From positions 62,001 to 126,000 of the forward strand of contig NZ_JAUSRN010000003.1 in NCBI RefSeq assembly GCF_030811855.1: a DNA stretch of 64,000 nucleotides, in the 5' to 3' direction. Of the stretch, positions 49,385 through 56,434 are shown one piece after another. Below the pieces are notes generated by a model that did not search any database, was not told where the DNA came from, and was given only the letters and a program-made list of their open reading frames with translations. Within the stretch, counting starts at the first letter, position 1; each line of letters begins with the position of its first letter. The position numbers and the translations under genes were made by a program. The DNA is from Variovorax paradoxus (GTDB lineage Bacteria; Pseudomonadota; Gammaproteobacteria; Burkholderiales; Burkholderiaceae_C).

Positions 49385-50221
49385 ATGCCAGTGATTGCAC
49401 TCACCCAGGAAATGGGCTCCCTTGCCAAGGACGTGTCGCTCAGGCTCGCCGAGCAGCTCGGCCTCGAGGCCATGCGCCACGAGACGATCGAGCGCGTGGC
49501 CGACCGCATGCAGGTGCCGACCAGCTTCATCGGCCGCCTGCGCGACGGCAAGGCCGGTTTTGTCGAACGGCTCACCGCCGACAAGCGCAGCCTTGCGCTC
49601 TACACGGCCGAGGAACTCTTCGCATTGGCCGACCGCGGCAACGTGGTGCTGCGCGGCTGGGGCGCAACATGCCTGCTGCGGCCGGTGCCGCACGTGGTGT
49701 GCGTGCGCATCACGCGCTCGATGAAGAAGCGTGTCGAATGGCTGATGGCGCACCTCGAAACCGACGATGCAGAGTTTGCAGAAGCCGAGATCCGGCGCAG
49801 CGATGACGCGCATGCGGCGCGCATGCATGCGCAGTTCGGCGTGACATGGGGCGACCCGGTGCTCTACGACCTGGTGCTCAACACCGATCGCCTCTCGGTG
49901 GACAGCTGCGTGGCACAGATCCGCGCGCTGGTCGAGCGCCCGGAGTTTGCCGAGACGCCGGCCTCGCGCGCGCTCTTGGCCAACATGGCGCTCGCTGCGC
50001 GGGTGAAGTCGGCATTGAAGGACAACGACGCCACCGGCGACATCCGCGTGACCGTGGAGGCCGACCAGGGCAAGGTAAAGCTGAGCGGCATCGTGCTCAA
50101 TGCACAGGAACGCGCGCTCACGCAGGAAGTGGCCTCCAAGGTCGACGGCGTGAGCGACGTCGACAACGCGCTGCGCCTGATGACGGTTCCACGCCGCTTC
50201 GCGTCGGCGAAGCAGACCTGA
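49385..50221 (+). CDS. Cytidylate-kinase-like domain fused to a BON domain
   Basis: Residues 1-190 resemble the cytidylate-kinase-like (Cytidylate_kin2) family: VIALTQEMGSLAKDVSLRLAEQLGL stands where the P-loop would be but lacks a GxxGxGK; then RGWGATCLLRPVPHVVCVRI and FGVTWGDPVLYDLVLNTDRLS. Residues about 205-270 form a BON domain (ARVKSALKDNDATGDIRVTV, GKVKLSGIVLNAQERAL, VDGVSDVDNAL), which usually binds membranes or lipids. The fusion suggests a membrane-associated regulator or phosphotransferase for the transport operon. Function is unproven. Confidence 0.8.
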   Translation: MPVIALTQEMGSLAKDVSLRLAEQLGLEAMRHETIERVADRMQVPTSFIGRLRDGKAGFVERLTADKRSLALYTAEELFALADRGNVVLRGWGATCLLRPVPHVVCVRITRSMKKRVEWLMAHLETDDAEFAEAEIRRSDDAHAARMHAQFGVTWGDPVLYDLVLNTDRLSVDSCVAQIRALVERPEFAETPASRALLANMALAARVKSALKDNDATGDIRVTVEADQGKVKLSGIVLNAQERALTQEVASKVDGVSDVDNALRLMTVPRRFASAKQT

Positions 50222-50234
50222 GTTCGGCGCCCGC

Positions 50235-50843
50235 CTAGATTTTTCCGCGCTTGCGGAGGCGGCTCAGGGTTTCCGCGGAGAGATTGAGGTACGAGGCCAG
50301 CTCCTTGCTCGGAATGCGGTCCTCGAGCTCCGGGTGCTTGCGCATGAACCGGTGCACGCGGCCGGGTGCATCGAGCAAATGCAGCGTGATGGTGTGCGCC
50401 ATGATTTCGCTCATGCCGCGCATCACGCAATATTCGAACAGCTCCTTGGTCTCGGGGTGGCGGTCCAGGAACGCGATCCACTCCTTCAGCGGCAGGCTGG
50501 CCACGCGCGCCTTTGTGACGCACACGATGCCATAGGGCGTGGGCGTGCCCAGCCGCAGCGCCGCATAGCTGGTTTCCATGTCGTGCGCATCGGCAAAGCG
50601 CAGGATCATTTCCTTGCCCTCGGGGTTGCTCACCACCCGCTTGAGGATGCCGTCGAGGATGAAGTACTGCTCCATCTCGCGCACGCCCTGGTGCAGCAGA
50701 AAGTCGCCCTTGTTGCCGTCCACGATGACGAGATGGGTTTCCAGCTCGGCACGCTCACTCTCGCTCAGGTCCTTGAGAAGGATGTTCTGCCGGAGCTGCG
50801 CACGAATGATGTTTTTCTCCGGGTGGTTTTCCAACAACGTCAT
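50235..50843 (-). CDS. Crp/Fnr-family transcription regulator
   Basis: The 202-residue protein has a cyclic-nucleotide-binding-like domain (GDFLLHQGVREMEQYFILDGILKRVVSN, quoted in parts as GDFLLHQGV and YFILDGILKRV), a long dimer helix and a C-terminal helix-turn-helix IPSKELASYLNLSAETLSRLRK. The recognition helix carries E-x-x-S-R, the FNR pattern that reads TTGA half-sites. No N-terminal cysteine cluster is seen, so it should not bind an FNR iron-sulfur cluster; its ligand is unknown. The chain ends right after the recognition helix. It is divergent from oxc, with a matching operator between them. Confidence 0.88.
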   Translation of the reverse strand: MTLLENHPEKNIIRAQLRQNILLKDLSESERAELETHLVIVDGNKGDFLLHQGVREMEQYFILDGILKRVVSNPEGKEMILRFADAHDMETSYAALRLGTPTPYGIVCVTKARVASLPLKEWIAFLDRHPETKELFEYCVMRGMSEIMAHTITLHLLDAPGRVHRFMRKHPELEDRIPSKELASYLNLSAETLSRLRKRGKI

Positions 50844-50912
50844 GGGTCCCGTCTTGCTCGAATTCGCAACAACAACATCTGGTTCATCTGGCCGGTGCCG
50901 TTTTCCGGAAAG

Positions 50913-50926
50913 TTGACCGAGGTCAA
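50913..50926. promoter_or_regulatory. FNR-type operator between the regulator and oxc
   Basis: TTGACC-GA-GGTCAA is a perfect inverted repeat. CATAGT at 50950-50955 stands 24 bases downstream of it, where the -10 of a class II Crp/Fnr promoter (site centred near -41.5) would be, pointing toward oxc. The site also lies 70 bases from the regulator's own start, so autoregulation is possible. Confidence 0.75.
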
Positions 50927-50999
50927 CGCCCGAAAGCATGCCCCCGAATCATAGTCCCGGCTCGGGCCTCGGCCATTCACCCAAGCAAGAAGGAGAGAC

Positions 51000-52838
51000 A
51001 TGTCTTCAGTAAGAACGGACAAAGAGGCATCCACGACCCTGGACGACGCCCTCAAGCCCAAGAACCGGGCCGCAGACGGCGACGCAGTCGTGGTCGCCCT
51101 CAAACACCCCACGGAGGAGGCAACGGCCGCGCACGACGCGACGATCGACGGCTTCCACCTGGTCATCGATGCGCTGAAGCTGAACGACATCGACACCATC
51201 TTCGGCCTGCCGGGCATCCCGATCACCGACCTCACGCGCATGGCACAGGCCGAAGGCCTGCGGGTCATCTCGTTCCGCCACGAGCAGCATGCGGGCAACG
51301 CGGCTGCGGCCGCCGGCTTCCTGACGCAGAAGCCCGGCATCTGCCTGACCGTGTCGGCACCCGGCTTCCTGAACGGCCTCACCGCGCTGGCCAACGCCAC
51401 CACCAATTGCTTCCCGATGATTCTCATCAGCGGCTCAAGCGAGCGCGAGATCGTCGACCTGCAGCAGGGCGACTACGAAGAGATGGACCAGCTCGCCATT
51501 GCCAAGCCGCTGTGCAAAGCCGCCTTCCGCGTGCTGCATGCCGAGGACATCGGCGTGGGCATCGCCCGCGCAATCCGCTCGGCGCTGTCGGGCCGCCCCG
51601 GCGGCGTGTACCTCGACCTGCCGGCCAAGCTGTTCGCTCAGACCATGAACGCCGAAGCCGGTCGCCGCTCGCTCATCAAAGTGATCGACCCGGCACCGCG
51701 CCAGATTCCGGCGCCTGACGCCGTGAACCGCGCGCTCGACCTGCTCAAGGGCGCGAAGAAGCCACTCATCCTGCTGGGCAAGGGCGCCGCCTACGCACAG
51801 GCCGACGCCGACATCCGCGCATTCATCGAGAAGACCGGCATTCCCTACCTGCCGATGTCGATGGCCAAGGGGCTCTTGCCCGACACGCATGTGCAATCGG
51901 CCGCGGCCGCGCGCTCCTACGTGCTGCAGGAAGCCGACGTGGTCATGCTGGTCGGCGCGCGCCTCAACTGGCTGCTGTCGCACGGCAAGGGCAAGACCTG
52001 GGGCCAGGAGAAGGGCGCCAAGCAGTTCATCCAGATCGACATCGCACCGACCGAGATCGACAGCAACGTGGCCATTGCGGCGCCGGTGATCGGCGACATT
52101 GGCTCCTGCGTGGCGGCACTGCTCGCGGGCGTCGATGCCAAGTGGGCCAAGCCCCCGGCCGAATGGACCGGTGCCATTGCCGAGCGCAAGGACAAGAACC
52201 TGTCGAAGATGGCCGTGACGCTGGCCGCGCGGCCCTCGCCGATGAACTTCCACAGCGCGCTGAGCGTGATCCGCGACCAGGTGAAGGCACGGCCCGACGC
52301 CATCGTGGTGAACGAAGGCGCCAACACGCTCGACTTCGCGCGCAGCATCGTCGACATGTACGAGCCGCGCAAGCGCCTCGACGTGGGCACCTGGGGAATC
52401 ATGGGCATCGGCATGGGCTTCGCCGTGGCGGCCGCGGTGGTCACCGACAAGCCGGTGATCGCCATCGAGGGCGACAGCGCCTTCGGCTTCAGCGGCATGG
52501 AGGTGGAGACCATCTGCCGCTACAACCTGCCGATCTGCATCGTCGTGTTCAACAACAACGGCGTCTACCGCGGCACCGACGTCAACCCGAGCGGCACGCC
52601 CGACGTGGCGCCCACCGTGTTCGTGAAGAACGCGCGCTACGACAAGCTGATGGAAGCGTTCGGTGGCGTGGGCGTCAACGCCACCACCGCGGATGAATTG
52701 CAGAAGGCGCTGGCCGAAGCCGTCGCCTCGCGCCGTCCGACCCTGATCAATGCCGTCATCGACGAGACGGCCGGAACGGAAAGCGGCCGGATCACCAGCC
52801 TCAATCCGAGCACGGCAAAGAAAAAGCAGCAGCAGTAA
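51000..52838 (+). CDS. oxc: Oxalyl-CoA decarboxylase
   Basis: This ThDP-dependent enzyme converts oxalyl-CoA to formyl-CoA and CO2. The 612-residue chain has the cofactor-activating Glu95 (SFRHEQHAG), the active-site string [11 protein letters not shown] found in Oxalobacter Oxc, [16 protein letters not shown] and the ThDP motif [10 protein letters not shown]...NNN. It is about 44 residues longer than the Oxalobacter enzyme, all at the N-terminus (about 1-44, charged, low conservation). No targeting signal is apparent in it. It is followed by frc 26 bases on. Confidence 0.96.
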
Positions 52839-52864: not shown

Positions 52865-54136
52865 ATGAGCAACAAACCCCTCAACGGCATCAAGATCATC
52901 GACTTCACGCACGTGCAAGCCGGCCCGGCCTGTACCCAGATGCTGGCCTGGTTCGGCGCCGACGTGATCAAGGTCGAGCGCCCCGGCGCCGGCGACGTCA
53001 CTCGCAGCCAGCTGCGCGACATCCCGAACGTCGACGCGCTGTACTTCACCATGCTCAACAGCAACAAGCGCTCGATCACGCTGGACACGAAGAAGCCCGA
53101 AGGCAAGGCCGTGCTGGAGAAGATGATTCGCGAATCCGACGTGCTGGTCGAAAACTTCGGCCCTGGCGCGCTGGACCGCATGGGCTTTACCTGGGAACGC
53201 ATCCAGGAGCTCAACCCCAAGATGATCGTTGCCTCGGTCAAGGGCTTCAGCGACGGCCACCACTATGAAGACCTGAAGGTGTACGAGAACGTAGCGCAGT
53301 GCGCCGGCGGCGCCGCCTCCACCACCGGCTGGTGGAAGGGCGAAAACTCCGCCCCGACGATCTCGGCCGCGGCGCTGGGCGACTCGAACACCGGCATGCA
53401 CCTGGCGATCGGCATCCTGACGGCCATCATCGGCCGCCAGCAAACCGGCAAGGGTCAGAAGGTGGCCTGCTCGATGCAGGACGCCGTGCTCAACCTGTGC
53501 CGCGTGAAGATGCGCGACCAGCAGCGCCTGGACAGCGTGGGCTACCTGGAGGAATACCCGCAGTACCCGCACGAGATGGACGCCTTCAAGGACGGCGTGG
53601 TGCCGCGCGGCGGCAATGCCGGCGGCGGCGGCCAGCCGGGCTGGATCCTGAAGTGCAAGGGCTGGCAGACCGACCCCAACGCCTACATCTACTTCACCGT
53701 GCAGGGCCACGCCTGGGACCCGATCTGCGATGCGCTCGGCAAGCCCGAGTGGAAGACCGATCCGGACTACATGACCCCCAAGGCCCGTCAGCCGCACATC
53801 GACCAGATCTTCGCCACCATCGAAGACTTCATCAAGGACAAGACCAAGTTCGAGGCGGTCGACATCTTCCGCAAGCACGACATTCCTTGCGCCCCGGTGC
53901 TGTCGATGAAAGAGCTGCTGCATGACGAGTCGCTGCGCAAGAGCGGCTCCATCGTCGAAGTGCCGCACAAGGAGCGCGGCAGTTATTGGACCATCGGCAG
54001 CCCGATCAAGTTCTCGGACCTCAAGCCCGAGGTCACTGCCTCGCCGCTCTTGGGCGAGCACACTGAACAGGTGCTGGCCGAACTGGGCTACACCCAGGCA
54101 CAGATCGACAACCTGAAAGAATCGAAGGCCGTCTAG
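52865..54136 (+). CDS. frc: Formyl-CoA:oxalate CoA-transferase
   Basis: Frc moves CoA from formyl-CoA to oxalate, regenerating oxalyl-CoA for Oxc. The 423-residue class III CoA-transferase has [36 protein letters not shown], the catalytic Asp173 in [11 protein letters not shown] and the glycine loop [12 protein letters not shown] that gates the active site. AGGAG lies 8 bases before the ATG. Its similarity to Oxalobacter Frc is high throughout. Confidence 0.96.
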
Positions 54137-54147
54137 CGGACCCACCC

Positions 54148-54181
54148 CAGCTCGCCCGCTTGATCACAGGCGGGCGAGCTG
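54148..54181 (+). terminator. Long hairpin after frc, without U-tract
   Basis: A perfect 12-bp stem CAGCTCGCCCGC/GCGGGCGAGCTG with a 10-base loop starts 12 bases after the frc stop. No T-run follows, so it may protect the oxc-frc mRNA end or attenuate rather than fully terminate. Confidence 0.5.
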
Positions 54182-54210
54182 CGAAATGACATGAAGCGCC
54201 AGAGGTAAAC

Positions 54211-54648
54211 ATGCAAGCGAACGTTGATTTCAAGCAGATCGTCGAAGGCGCCGGCGACGCGATCATGGTGTGCAATGCGGGAGGAGCGATCACGCTCTGG
54301 AACCGCGCGGCCGAGCGCATCTTCGGTTTCACCGAGGCGGAGGCCCTGGGCCAGTCGCTTGACATGATCATTCCCCAGCGGCAGCGCCAGCGGCACTGGG
54401 ACGGTTACAACAAGACCATGGAAACCGGCATCACCAAATACGGTGCCGATCTGCTGCGCGTGCCGGCGCTGCACAAGGACGGGCACACGCTGTCGATTGC
54501 CTTCACGGTGTCGATGCTGTTCTCGGAAAATCGTGAAGTCACGGGCATCGTTGCCTTCGTGCGAGACGAAACAGCCCGCTTTGCGGAGGAGCGTAAATTG
54601 CGCGCTCGTCTGCAAGAAGCAGAGACCACGATCAAAGGAGACAGCTGA
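54211..54648 (+). CDS. Stand-alone PAS-domain protein
   Basis: The 145-residue protein is one PAS domain (about 8-125) with [18 protein letters not shown] and [17 protein letters not shown], and a short C-terminal helix. His62 in [16 protein letters not shown] aligns with the heme-ligand position of FixL- and RcoM-type PAS domains, so a heme gas or redox sensor is possible; flavin cannot be excluded. There is no output domain, so it must act through a partner. Its stop overlaps the second transferase gene (TGATG). Confidence 0.85.
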
Positions 54649-55895
54649 TGAGCAAGGCACTAGAGGGCGTTCGCATCCTCGATTTCACCCATGTGCAGTC
54701 CGGTCCCACGTGCACCCAGTTGCTGGCATGGTTCGGCGCGGACGTGATCAAGGTGGAGCGCGCCGGTGAGGGCGACGCCACGCGCGGCCAGCTGCGCGAC
54801 ATTCCCGGTGTGGACAGCCTCTACTTCACGATGCTGAACCACAACAAGCGCTCGATCACGCTCGACACCAAGAAGCCCAAGGGCAAGAAGGTGCTCGACA
54901 CGCTGATCAAGACCTGCGACGTGCTGGTCGAGAACTTCGCGCCCGGGGCACTCGACCGCATGGGCATCACCTGGGCCCACATCCAGGAACTCAACCCGCG
55001 CATGATCGTGGCCTCGGTCAAGGGCTTTGGCCCCGGCAAGTACGAGCATTGCAAGGTGTACGAGAACGTGGCCCAGTGCGCGGGCGGCGCGGCCTCGACC
55101 ACGGGCTTCGAAGACGGCCCTCCGGTCGTCACGGGCGCGCAGATCGGCGACAGCGGAACCGGGCTGCACCTGGCGCTGGGCATCGTGGCGGCGCTCTACC
55201 AGCGCAACAACACGGGCCGCGGCCAGCAGGTGCTCGCGCCCATGCAGGACGCGGTGCTGAACCTCTGCCGCGTGAAGATGCGCGACCAGCAGCGACTGGA
55301 GCGCACCGGCACCATGCATGAATATCCGCAGTACCCGGACGGCAAGTTCGGCGACGCGGTGCCGCGCGCGGGCAACGCGTCAGGCGGCGGCCAGCCCGGC
55401 TCGATCCTCAAGTGCAAGGGCTGGGAGACCGACCCCAACGCCTACATCTACTTCATCACGCAGGGCGCGGTGTGGCCGGCGGTGTGCAAGGTCATCGGCG
55501 AAGAAGGCTGGATCACCGACGAGGCCTACGCCACGCCGGCGGCGCGCCTGCTGCACCTGAAGCCGATCTTCGCGCGCATCGAGCAATGGACCATGACCAA
55601 GACCAAGTTCGAGGCCATGGACATCCTCAACCAGTACGACATTCCGTGCGGGCCGATTCTTTCGATGAAGGAAATTGCCGCTGACGAGTCGCTGCGCGAG
55701 ACCGGCACCATCGTCGAGGTGGACCACCCGACACGGGGCAAATACCTGACGGTGGGCAACCCGATCAAGATGTCCGACAGCCCGACCGAGGTCACGCGCT
55801 CGCCGCTGCTCGGCGAGCACACCGAAGAAGTGTTGATGCAACTGGGCTACACCGCGAGCGATGTCGAGGCGCTGCGCGCCGAGGGTGTGATCTGA
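54648..55895 (+). CDS. Second formyl-CoA transferase-like class III CoA-transferase
   Basis: The 415-residue protein is a close paralogue of Frc ([20 protein letters not shown]; catalytic Asp168 in [12 protein letters not shown]). Differences sit at the active site: the glycine loop reads [12 protein letters not shown] instead of [12 protein letters not shown], and TTGFEDGPP replaces [10 protein letters not shown]. These suggest another CoA donor or acceptor, as for YfdE/UctC-type acetyl-CoA or succinyl-CoA:oxalate transferases. The substrate is an inference. Confidence 0.9.
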
Positions 55896-56019: not shown

Positions 56020-56104
56020 ATTTATCGATCAACGAACCTACATTTTGATCATGCCGATCCACAAAACATTTGTCGCTCGGCGTTCAATTTCTAGGAGAAA
56101 TTTC

Positions 56105-56434
56105 ATGATCGATGAATTGCCAATTCAATACTGGAACAGCGAAACCGAGCGCAACGCCTACAACGCTGCCTTCTACGAACTCGGATTCCGCTGGCACTGG
56201 GACCGCGAAATCTATTGCCAGCTGCTGCGCGAGAGCCACGACGGCATCGAGCGGGTCAGTCATTACCTGAATACCCACCAGCCGCATCTGCTGCGCGCCT
56301 ACGACGCCAAATTCCTGGCCGAGGTGATCGAACAAAAGAAGGAAGAGCATCAAAAGCGCGAGTTGAATACGGGCGCCATGAAAAAGCGCTATTTCAACTG
56401 GGCCGAAACCCGCGGCGCGGAACTCGGCGCCTGA
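56105..56434 (+). CDS. Conserved-looking hypothetical protein, 109 residues
   Basis: A soluble, Trp/Tyr-rich and charged protein: [53 protein letters not shown], ending in a basic helix. AGGAG sits 7 bases before the ATG at 56105; an upstream ATG at 56045 lies in the A/T-rich control region and is not preferred. It starts what looks like the sucCD-like operon (10 bases to the next gene). I do not recognise the family. Confidence 0.75.

Follow-up and report, generated by a model that had tools for sequence, protein, structure and literature searches.

The window analysed here, a stretch of 64,000 nucleotides of Variovorax paradoxus DNA, contains an oxalate locus in which a gene for a lone PAS-domain protein of 145 aa (54211..54648, + strand, ATG start) lies between two genes encoding formyl-CoA transferases. 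On the same strand are oxc, for an oxalyl-CoA decarboxylase (51000..52838; TIGR03254, 999.5 bits, above the cut-off of that model), frc1, for a formyl-CoA:oxalate CoA-transferase of the clade linked to the PAS gene (52865..54136; TIGR03253, 714.7 bits), and, following the PAS gene, frc2, for a second formyl-CoA transferase of another clade (54648..55895; 720.7 bits), both transferases scoring above the TIGR03253 cut-off. A gene for a Crp/Fnr-type regulator (50235..50939, - strand; PF00027), with no specific link to PAS, is divergent from oxc. The end of frc1 and the start of the PAS gene are separated by 74 bases, and the latter ends in a TGA (54646-54648) whose last base is also the first of the frc2 ATG (54648-54650). 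A preliminary description of this DNA had pointed to an orphan PAS gene between two CoA-transferase genes and overlapping the second of them, and both features were confirmed, the overlap amounting to that single base.

The protein matched the Pfam PAS model with 55.6 bits (E 6e-15, cut-off 22.6), and no other domain was found in it, the Pfam search returning PAS models only. Its AF2 model has a mean pLDDT of 86.8 and a pTM of 0.76, and its nearest named relatives are from Variovorax, with up to 99% identity. Two further genes lie close to this group. One (56045-56434) encodes a 129-aa protein without Pfam or NCBIfam match at E 0.001, relatives of which were present in 44 of the 80 stretches around PAS genes described below, while the other (49385-50221, in 28 of the 80) encodes a cytidylate kinase-like domain fused to a BON domain and adjoins genes that, by eye, resemble those for tripartite tricarboxylate transporters.

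When 187 distinct Frc sequences, most of them from loci chosen for carrying PAS, were placed in a tree, they split cleanly into frc1 (101 sequences) and frc2 (86), and 30 alignment columns are diagnostic of the two clades. In the frc2 clade the GGGGQP loop begins with Ser instead of Gly, and the GDSNTG stretch has Gly in place of Asn. Frc1 matched E. coli Frc (YfdW) and Oxalobacter FRC with 640 and 583 bits, respectively; the PDB entries of these two proteins hold the enzyme alone.

The predicted ligand pocket of the PAS protein

His62, in the motif RHWDGY (codon 54394..54396, + strand), is the predicted proximal heme ligand and is located in helix 56-72 of the model. HMMER aligned it with the RHDSY His of FixL, which we take to be His200, and the alignment with BjFixL (1xj6), beginning with residue 15 on 153, also places 62 on 200 if gap-free. 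The residue is His in 85/85 distinct orthologues and in five of five distant ones, as well as in all 44 rows of another set, possibly sharing members with the first and reaching down to 37% identity; the adjacent Trp63 is W in 33 of these 44 rows. We also considered that His62 could be a generic PAS residue, an idea that was rejected given that, among the 23 other PAS matches in this genome, no more than 4 carry His in that column, three of them being poorly aligned. Thus, the placement of His62 at the heme-ligand position of FixL, put forward in the preliminary description together with the question of its conservation, was supported on both counts. Elsewhere in the same genome, a PAS domain with a FixL-like RPRHAAY motif (L133, G000:C8:263312-263644) is found in an open frame of 905 aa.

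The closest PDB sequences were those of FixL (E 7e-12) and DosP (E 2e-9), in agreement with a profile search. Foldseek, run with the AF2 model, gave heme PAS domains (FixL, DosP or FG214) in 32 of its top 34 rows, a count inflated by the many near-identical PDB entries of FixL and DosP; the other two were 3lyx, a PAS of unstated ligand. VIA-align gave the best fold with FixL (8js5; Z 17.4, rmsd 2.5, 136 aligned), followed by 3lyx (16.7), DosP (1v9z, 16.4) and FG214 (16.1), with the flavin PAS domains of a LOV protein, NifL and Aer at 15.8, 15.4 and 14.3. Since the scores of 3lyx, LOV and NifL are near that of FixL, the cofactor cannot be named from the fold alone.

Both sequence and fold therefore place FixL (Bradyrhizobium japonicum, Sinorhizobium meliloti) first and, in sequence, DosP (Ec DOS) PAS-A as the second group. 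The differences with these proteins concern the output: the PAS protein stands alone within an oxalate locus, and neither the kinase of FixL nor the phosphodiesterase part of DosP is present, as judged by Pfam. The FG214 heme PAS (10jx, rank 8 in Foldseek) differs in being, according to its title, a domain of a one-component transcription factor. The CO regulator RcoM carries a DNA-binding output domain, and Pfam found none of that type in the 145 aa.

In FixL, the residues relevant for the comparison are R206 and H214, near the heme propionates, and I215 and R220 on the distal side. Published work describes an Arg by which O2, once bound, is stabilised in FixL and Ec DOS (PMC4263535), and places R200 of S. 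meliloti FixL at the heme propionate network and I209 at the putative distal pocket (PMC10765370). In FixL the His and the Asp of the DG turn are 28 residues apart, as they are in 84 of the 85 orthologues (the pattern failed in one), and with an ungapped reading R206 corresponds to K68 (72/85) and H214 to K/R76 (85/85), basic residues that are chemically similar, though not identical, to those of FixL. At His+15, the Ile215 position, is Tyr77 (codon 54439..54441, + strand), predicted to lie in the distal pocket, and at His+20, the Arg220 position, Leu82 (codon 54454..54456, + strand), each of them invariant in the 85 sequences. Under this spacing there is no counterpart of the distal Arg of FixL, so an O2 pocket of the FixL type is not supported. 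The O2-stabilising Arg of DosP is R97, which, if DosP shares the spacing of FixL, has no counterpart either. Arg83 was suggested as equivalent to Arg220 by a gapped alignment and was dropped after checking the distance between His and DG, although the register at His+20 is not beyond doubt, precisely because that alignment places R/K83 there. At residue 83 all 85 core sequences have R or K and four displaced copies described below (L250-L253) have T, whereas more distant relatives vary, and this variation with gene neighbourhood hints at tuning by context.

The predicted pocket thus seems to resemble that of FixL on its proximal side and to differ from it on the distal one, and because of this difference, with Tyr77, Leu82, Phe98 and Val100 as distal residues, the gas preference of the predicted heme PAS is probably not that of FixL. 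The missing distal Arg, along with the fold scores of NifL and LOV, would also fit a protein that binds a flavin or a metabolite (oxalate, formyl-CoA or oxalyl-CoA), in which His62, Trp63 and Tyr66 would be structural or belong to some other pocket. We consider this unlikely: His62 is invariant across unrelated operons, where one would not expect an oxalate metabolite as the shared ligand, sequence searches rank FixL and DosP first, and the Cys-containing NCRFLQ motif of LOV flavin domains is absent from the sequence, whose single Cys, C21, is conserved in 62 of the 85 orthologues.

Linkage of the PAS gene to frc1

Three sets of genomes were used to analyse how closely the PAS gene is associated with its neighbours. 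A survey of named genomes gave 213 PAS relatives, and in the best 80 of these 213 loci frc was always present within 700 bp and on the same strand, with frc1 upstream of PAS in 70 and downstream in nine (e.g. in Azospirillum); in the remaining one (L052), cut by the start of the contig, only frc2 could be seen, downstream of PAS. Altogether frc1 was found in 79/80 stretches, oxc in at least 62, frc2 in at least 57 and a Crp/Fnr gene in at least 48, figures that are minima since contig ends cut some of the stretches and, for oxc and the Crp/Fnr gene, matches with less than 50% identity were left out. The open reading frames of the PAS genes linked to frc ranged from 140 to 158 aa. Orthologues with 55-99% identity recur beside frc across genera, which we take to be of Beta-, Alpha- and Gammaproteobacteria, and the arrangement is more than chance.

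In a phylum sample of 397 genomes, with a threshold for orthologues of E <= 1.8e-57, a PAS orthologue was detected in 18 and frc1 adjoined it in all of them, while none of 17 weaker matches (E 1e-45 to 1e-23; 37-53% identity) had frc within around 8 kb. E. coli, included as a control of the search, gave both frc and oxc. Among the 34 genomes with frc in this sample, PAS was present in 18 of the 20 with two or more copies, G201 and G151 being those that lack it, and in none of the 14 with a single copy; nor was it present in any of the 363 genomes without frc. The oxc gene was found in 17 of the 18 PAS genomes (none at threshold in G043). It was rejected as the main link, as 14 oxc genomes of this sample have no PAS.

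The third set consisted of 259 genomes of one Burkholderiales family, 141 of them with frc, which were divided into 120 with frc1-type and 21 with only frc2-type genes by a gap in the scores against the Oxalobacter enzyme (E 2.1e-174 to 1.5e-167) and not by a tree. The best match for this enzyme in the sample had 66% identity, so the genus Oxalobacter itself, sought as an anaerobic control, is outside it. PAS was present in 117/120 genomes of the frc1 type versus 0/21 of those with frc2 only (Fisher 4e-22, uncorrected for common descent), and at 115 of the 126 places where it occurs it lies downstream of frc1 and no more than 700 bp away. PAS orthologues thus track the frc1 clade more closely than they do oxc or the Crp/Fnr gene, and the link to the enzyme considered in the preliminary description turns out to be far stronger than a single locus reveals. 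The Crp/Fnr protein, also mentioned there as a potential partner, is a weaker candidate, considering the 48 stretches with its gene (some of the 80 being cut by contig ends) against the 79 with frc1.

There are exceptions to this association. Four genomes have frc1 and no PAS: G201 and G714 (both with the order oxc-frc1-frc2), G632 (83% complete) and G151. Conversely, five further genomes of the family survey, all of one genus (G658, G677, G694, G731 and G745), carry PAS without frc at the threshold used, and in one of them (L246) the gene preceding PAS encodes a pyridine-nucleotide oxidoreductase. Neither gene therefore strictly needs the other. In G697 (L256) it is frc2 that adjoins PAS, with frc1 about 15 kb away, and in G721 oxc, frc1 and frc2 are together without PAS (L257), two copies of which are found elsewhere.

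The surveys establish the genetic pairing of PAS and frc1. We tentatively favour, with somewhat less than even confidence, that the protein is a single-domain sensor of the heme PAS type, responding to gas or redox state, and a dedicated partner of the Frc1 isoform. His62 would be the residue through which PAS binds heme, the domain would be altered by a diatomic ligand (NO or O2) or by the redox state of the iron, and PAS, in contact with Frc1 or with mixed Frc1/Frc2 assemblies, might adjust CoA transfer onto oxalate. PAS domains usually have a role in signalling, and such a sensor could alternatively act on expression or signalling through the Crp/Fnr protein, a kinase or another PAS protein rather than on Frc1, the linkage reflecting a shared regulon. 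That 48 of the 80 stretches include a Crp/Fnr gene agrees with this proposal, and so does the spacer between frc1 and PAS, from which less PAS might be made. In the window, this spacer contains an RNA hairpin of 15 pairs, one of them G-U (54148-54181, + strand); the region 54134-54215 folds with a z of -4.41, and 0/200 shuffles folded as well. Among 52 distinct spacers of named loci (25 to 200 bases), 26 had z < -2 and the other half no special folding; a stem of at least 10 pairs was present in 20, seven of which also have five consecutive T at some point in the spacer. Where present, the hairpin fits PAS expression below that of frc1, as for a regulator. However, the link is to one clade of one enzyme, as the family survey shows, and the pair is kept in stretches without crp or oxc, such as the PAS-frc1 pair of Azospirillum, so we regard an action away from Frc1 as doubtful and Frc1 as the favoured partner. 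By eye, the spacer hairpins of some other loci (for example L099, L114 and L119) resemble intrinsic terminators. A promoter scan found none, and the terminator-like sites detected, eight against 5.6 +/- 2.0 in shuffled sequences, are all on the minus strand.

PAS copies and relatives away from frc

Second or displaced copies of PAS in relatives with small genomes offer some indication of the signal that might be involved. Two of them (L250 and L251) adjoin NnrS (PF05940, E 4e-97 and 1e-96), and another two (L252 and L253) lie directly after a gene for an Rrf2 regulator that matches the NsrR model best, though below its cut-off, the copy in L253 being also directly before a bacterial globin gene. 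In these neighbourhoods (L250:6784-8375, L251:6480-8071, L252:7472-8353 and L253:6888-8668) there is in addition a membrane protein with weak similarity to CopD, below cut-off. The NnrS, NsrR-like Rrf2, globin and CopD-like neighbours are a pointer to NO response. A gene for a distant CoA-transferase (29% identity to frc2) is located around 2 kb from the PAS copy of L252.

In total, PAS or a sister of it was away from frc in 32 loci, and in six of these (L211, L246 and L250-L253) family models identified a neighbour or a fusion of redox or NO type, to which L124 adds an annotated Rrf2 gene; in most of the remaining loci, inspected by eye, no such neighbour was seen. L211 (7647-8930, genome G151) and L223-L234 encode fusions in which FAD- and NAD-binding reductase domains precede a sister PAS that has the same His, a layout that by eye is that of a flavohemoglobin reductase with PAS in the globin's stead. 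Near full-length matches to this fusion were found in 15 of the 149 genomes of the family of G151, the latter included.

The globin and NnrS neighbours and the fusion of the sister domain to a FAD/NAD reductase could also be taken as signs of a housekeeping heme protein, devoted to scavenging NO or O2 or to protecting or stabilising Frc1, with no part in signalling. This seems to us very unlikely, given that the PAS genes of the frc1 loci lack a fused reductase and that single heme PAS domains are not known to us to be catalytically active. Taken with the sensor reading that we favour, the association with frc1 suggests that oxalate breakdown in bacteria is adjusted in response to a gas, for instance oxygen or nitric oxide. 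A more ambitious proposal, which as a whole we hold to be rather unlikely, is that the lone heme PAS is a detachable, gas-responsive subunit of Frc1 through which NO or O2 would gate oxalate catabolism of soil Proteobacteria at the protein level, as one member of a wider family of lone His-containing PAS partners of CoA-transferases, reductases and NO-response proteins. If the pair of PAS and Frc1 works in the way that we favour, a metabolic enzyme would be under the direct control of a lone PAS domain, and the division of Frc into one clade with a PAS partner of its own and another mostly without it would gain a testable explanation. Bacterial oxalate degradation raises pH and feeds carbonate formation (PMC13344952), and a literature search covering the result listings of one collection gave no PAS protein linked to Frc or Oxc.

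One displaced copy is found in surroundings of a different kind. In G742 (L254:7562-8518) no neighbour of the NnrS, Rrf2 or globin type is present, and the PAS relative follows genes that by eye appear to encode a cyanate hydratase-like protein and an ABC transporter ATPase-like protein.
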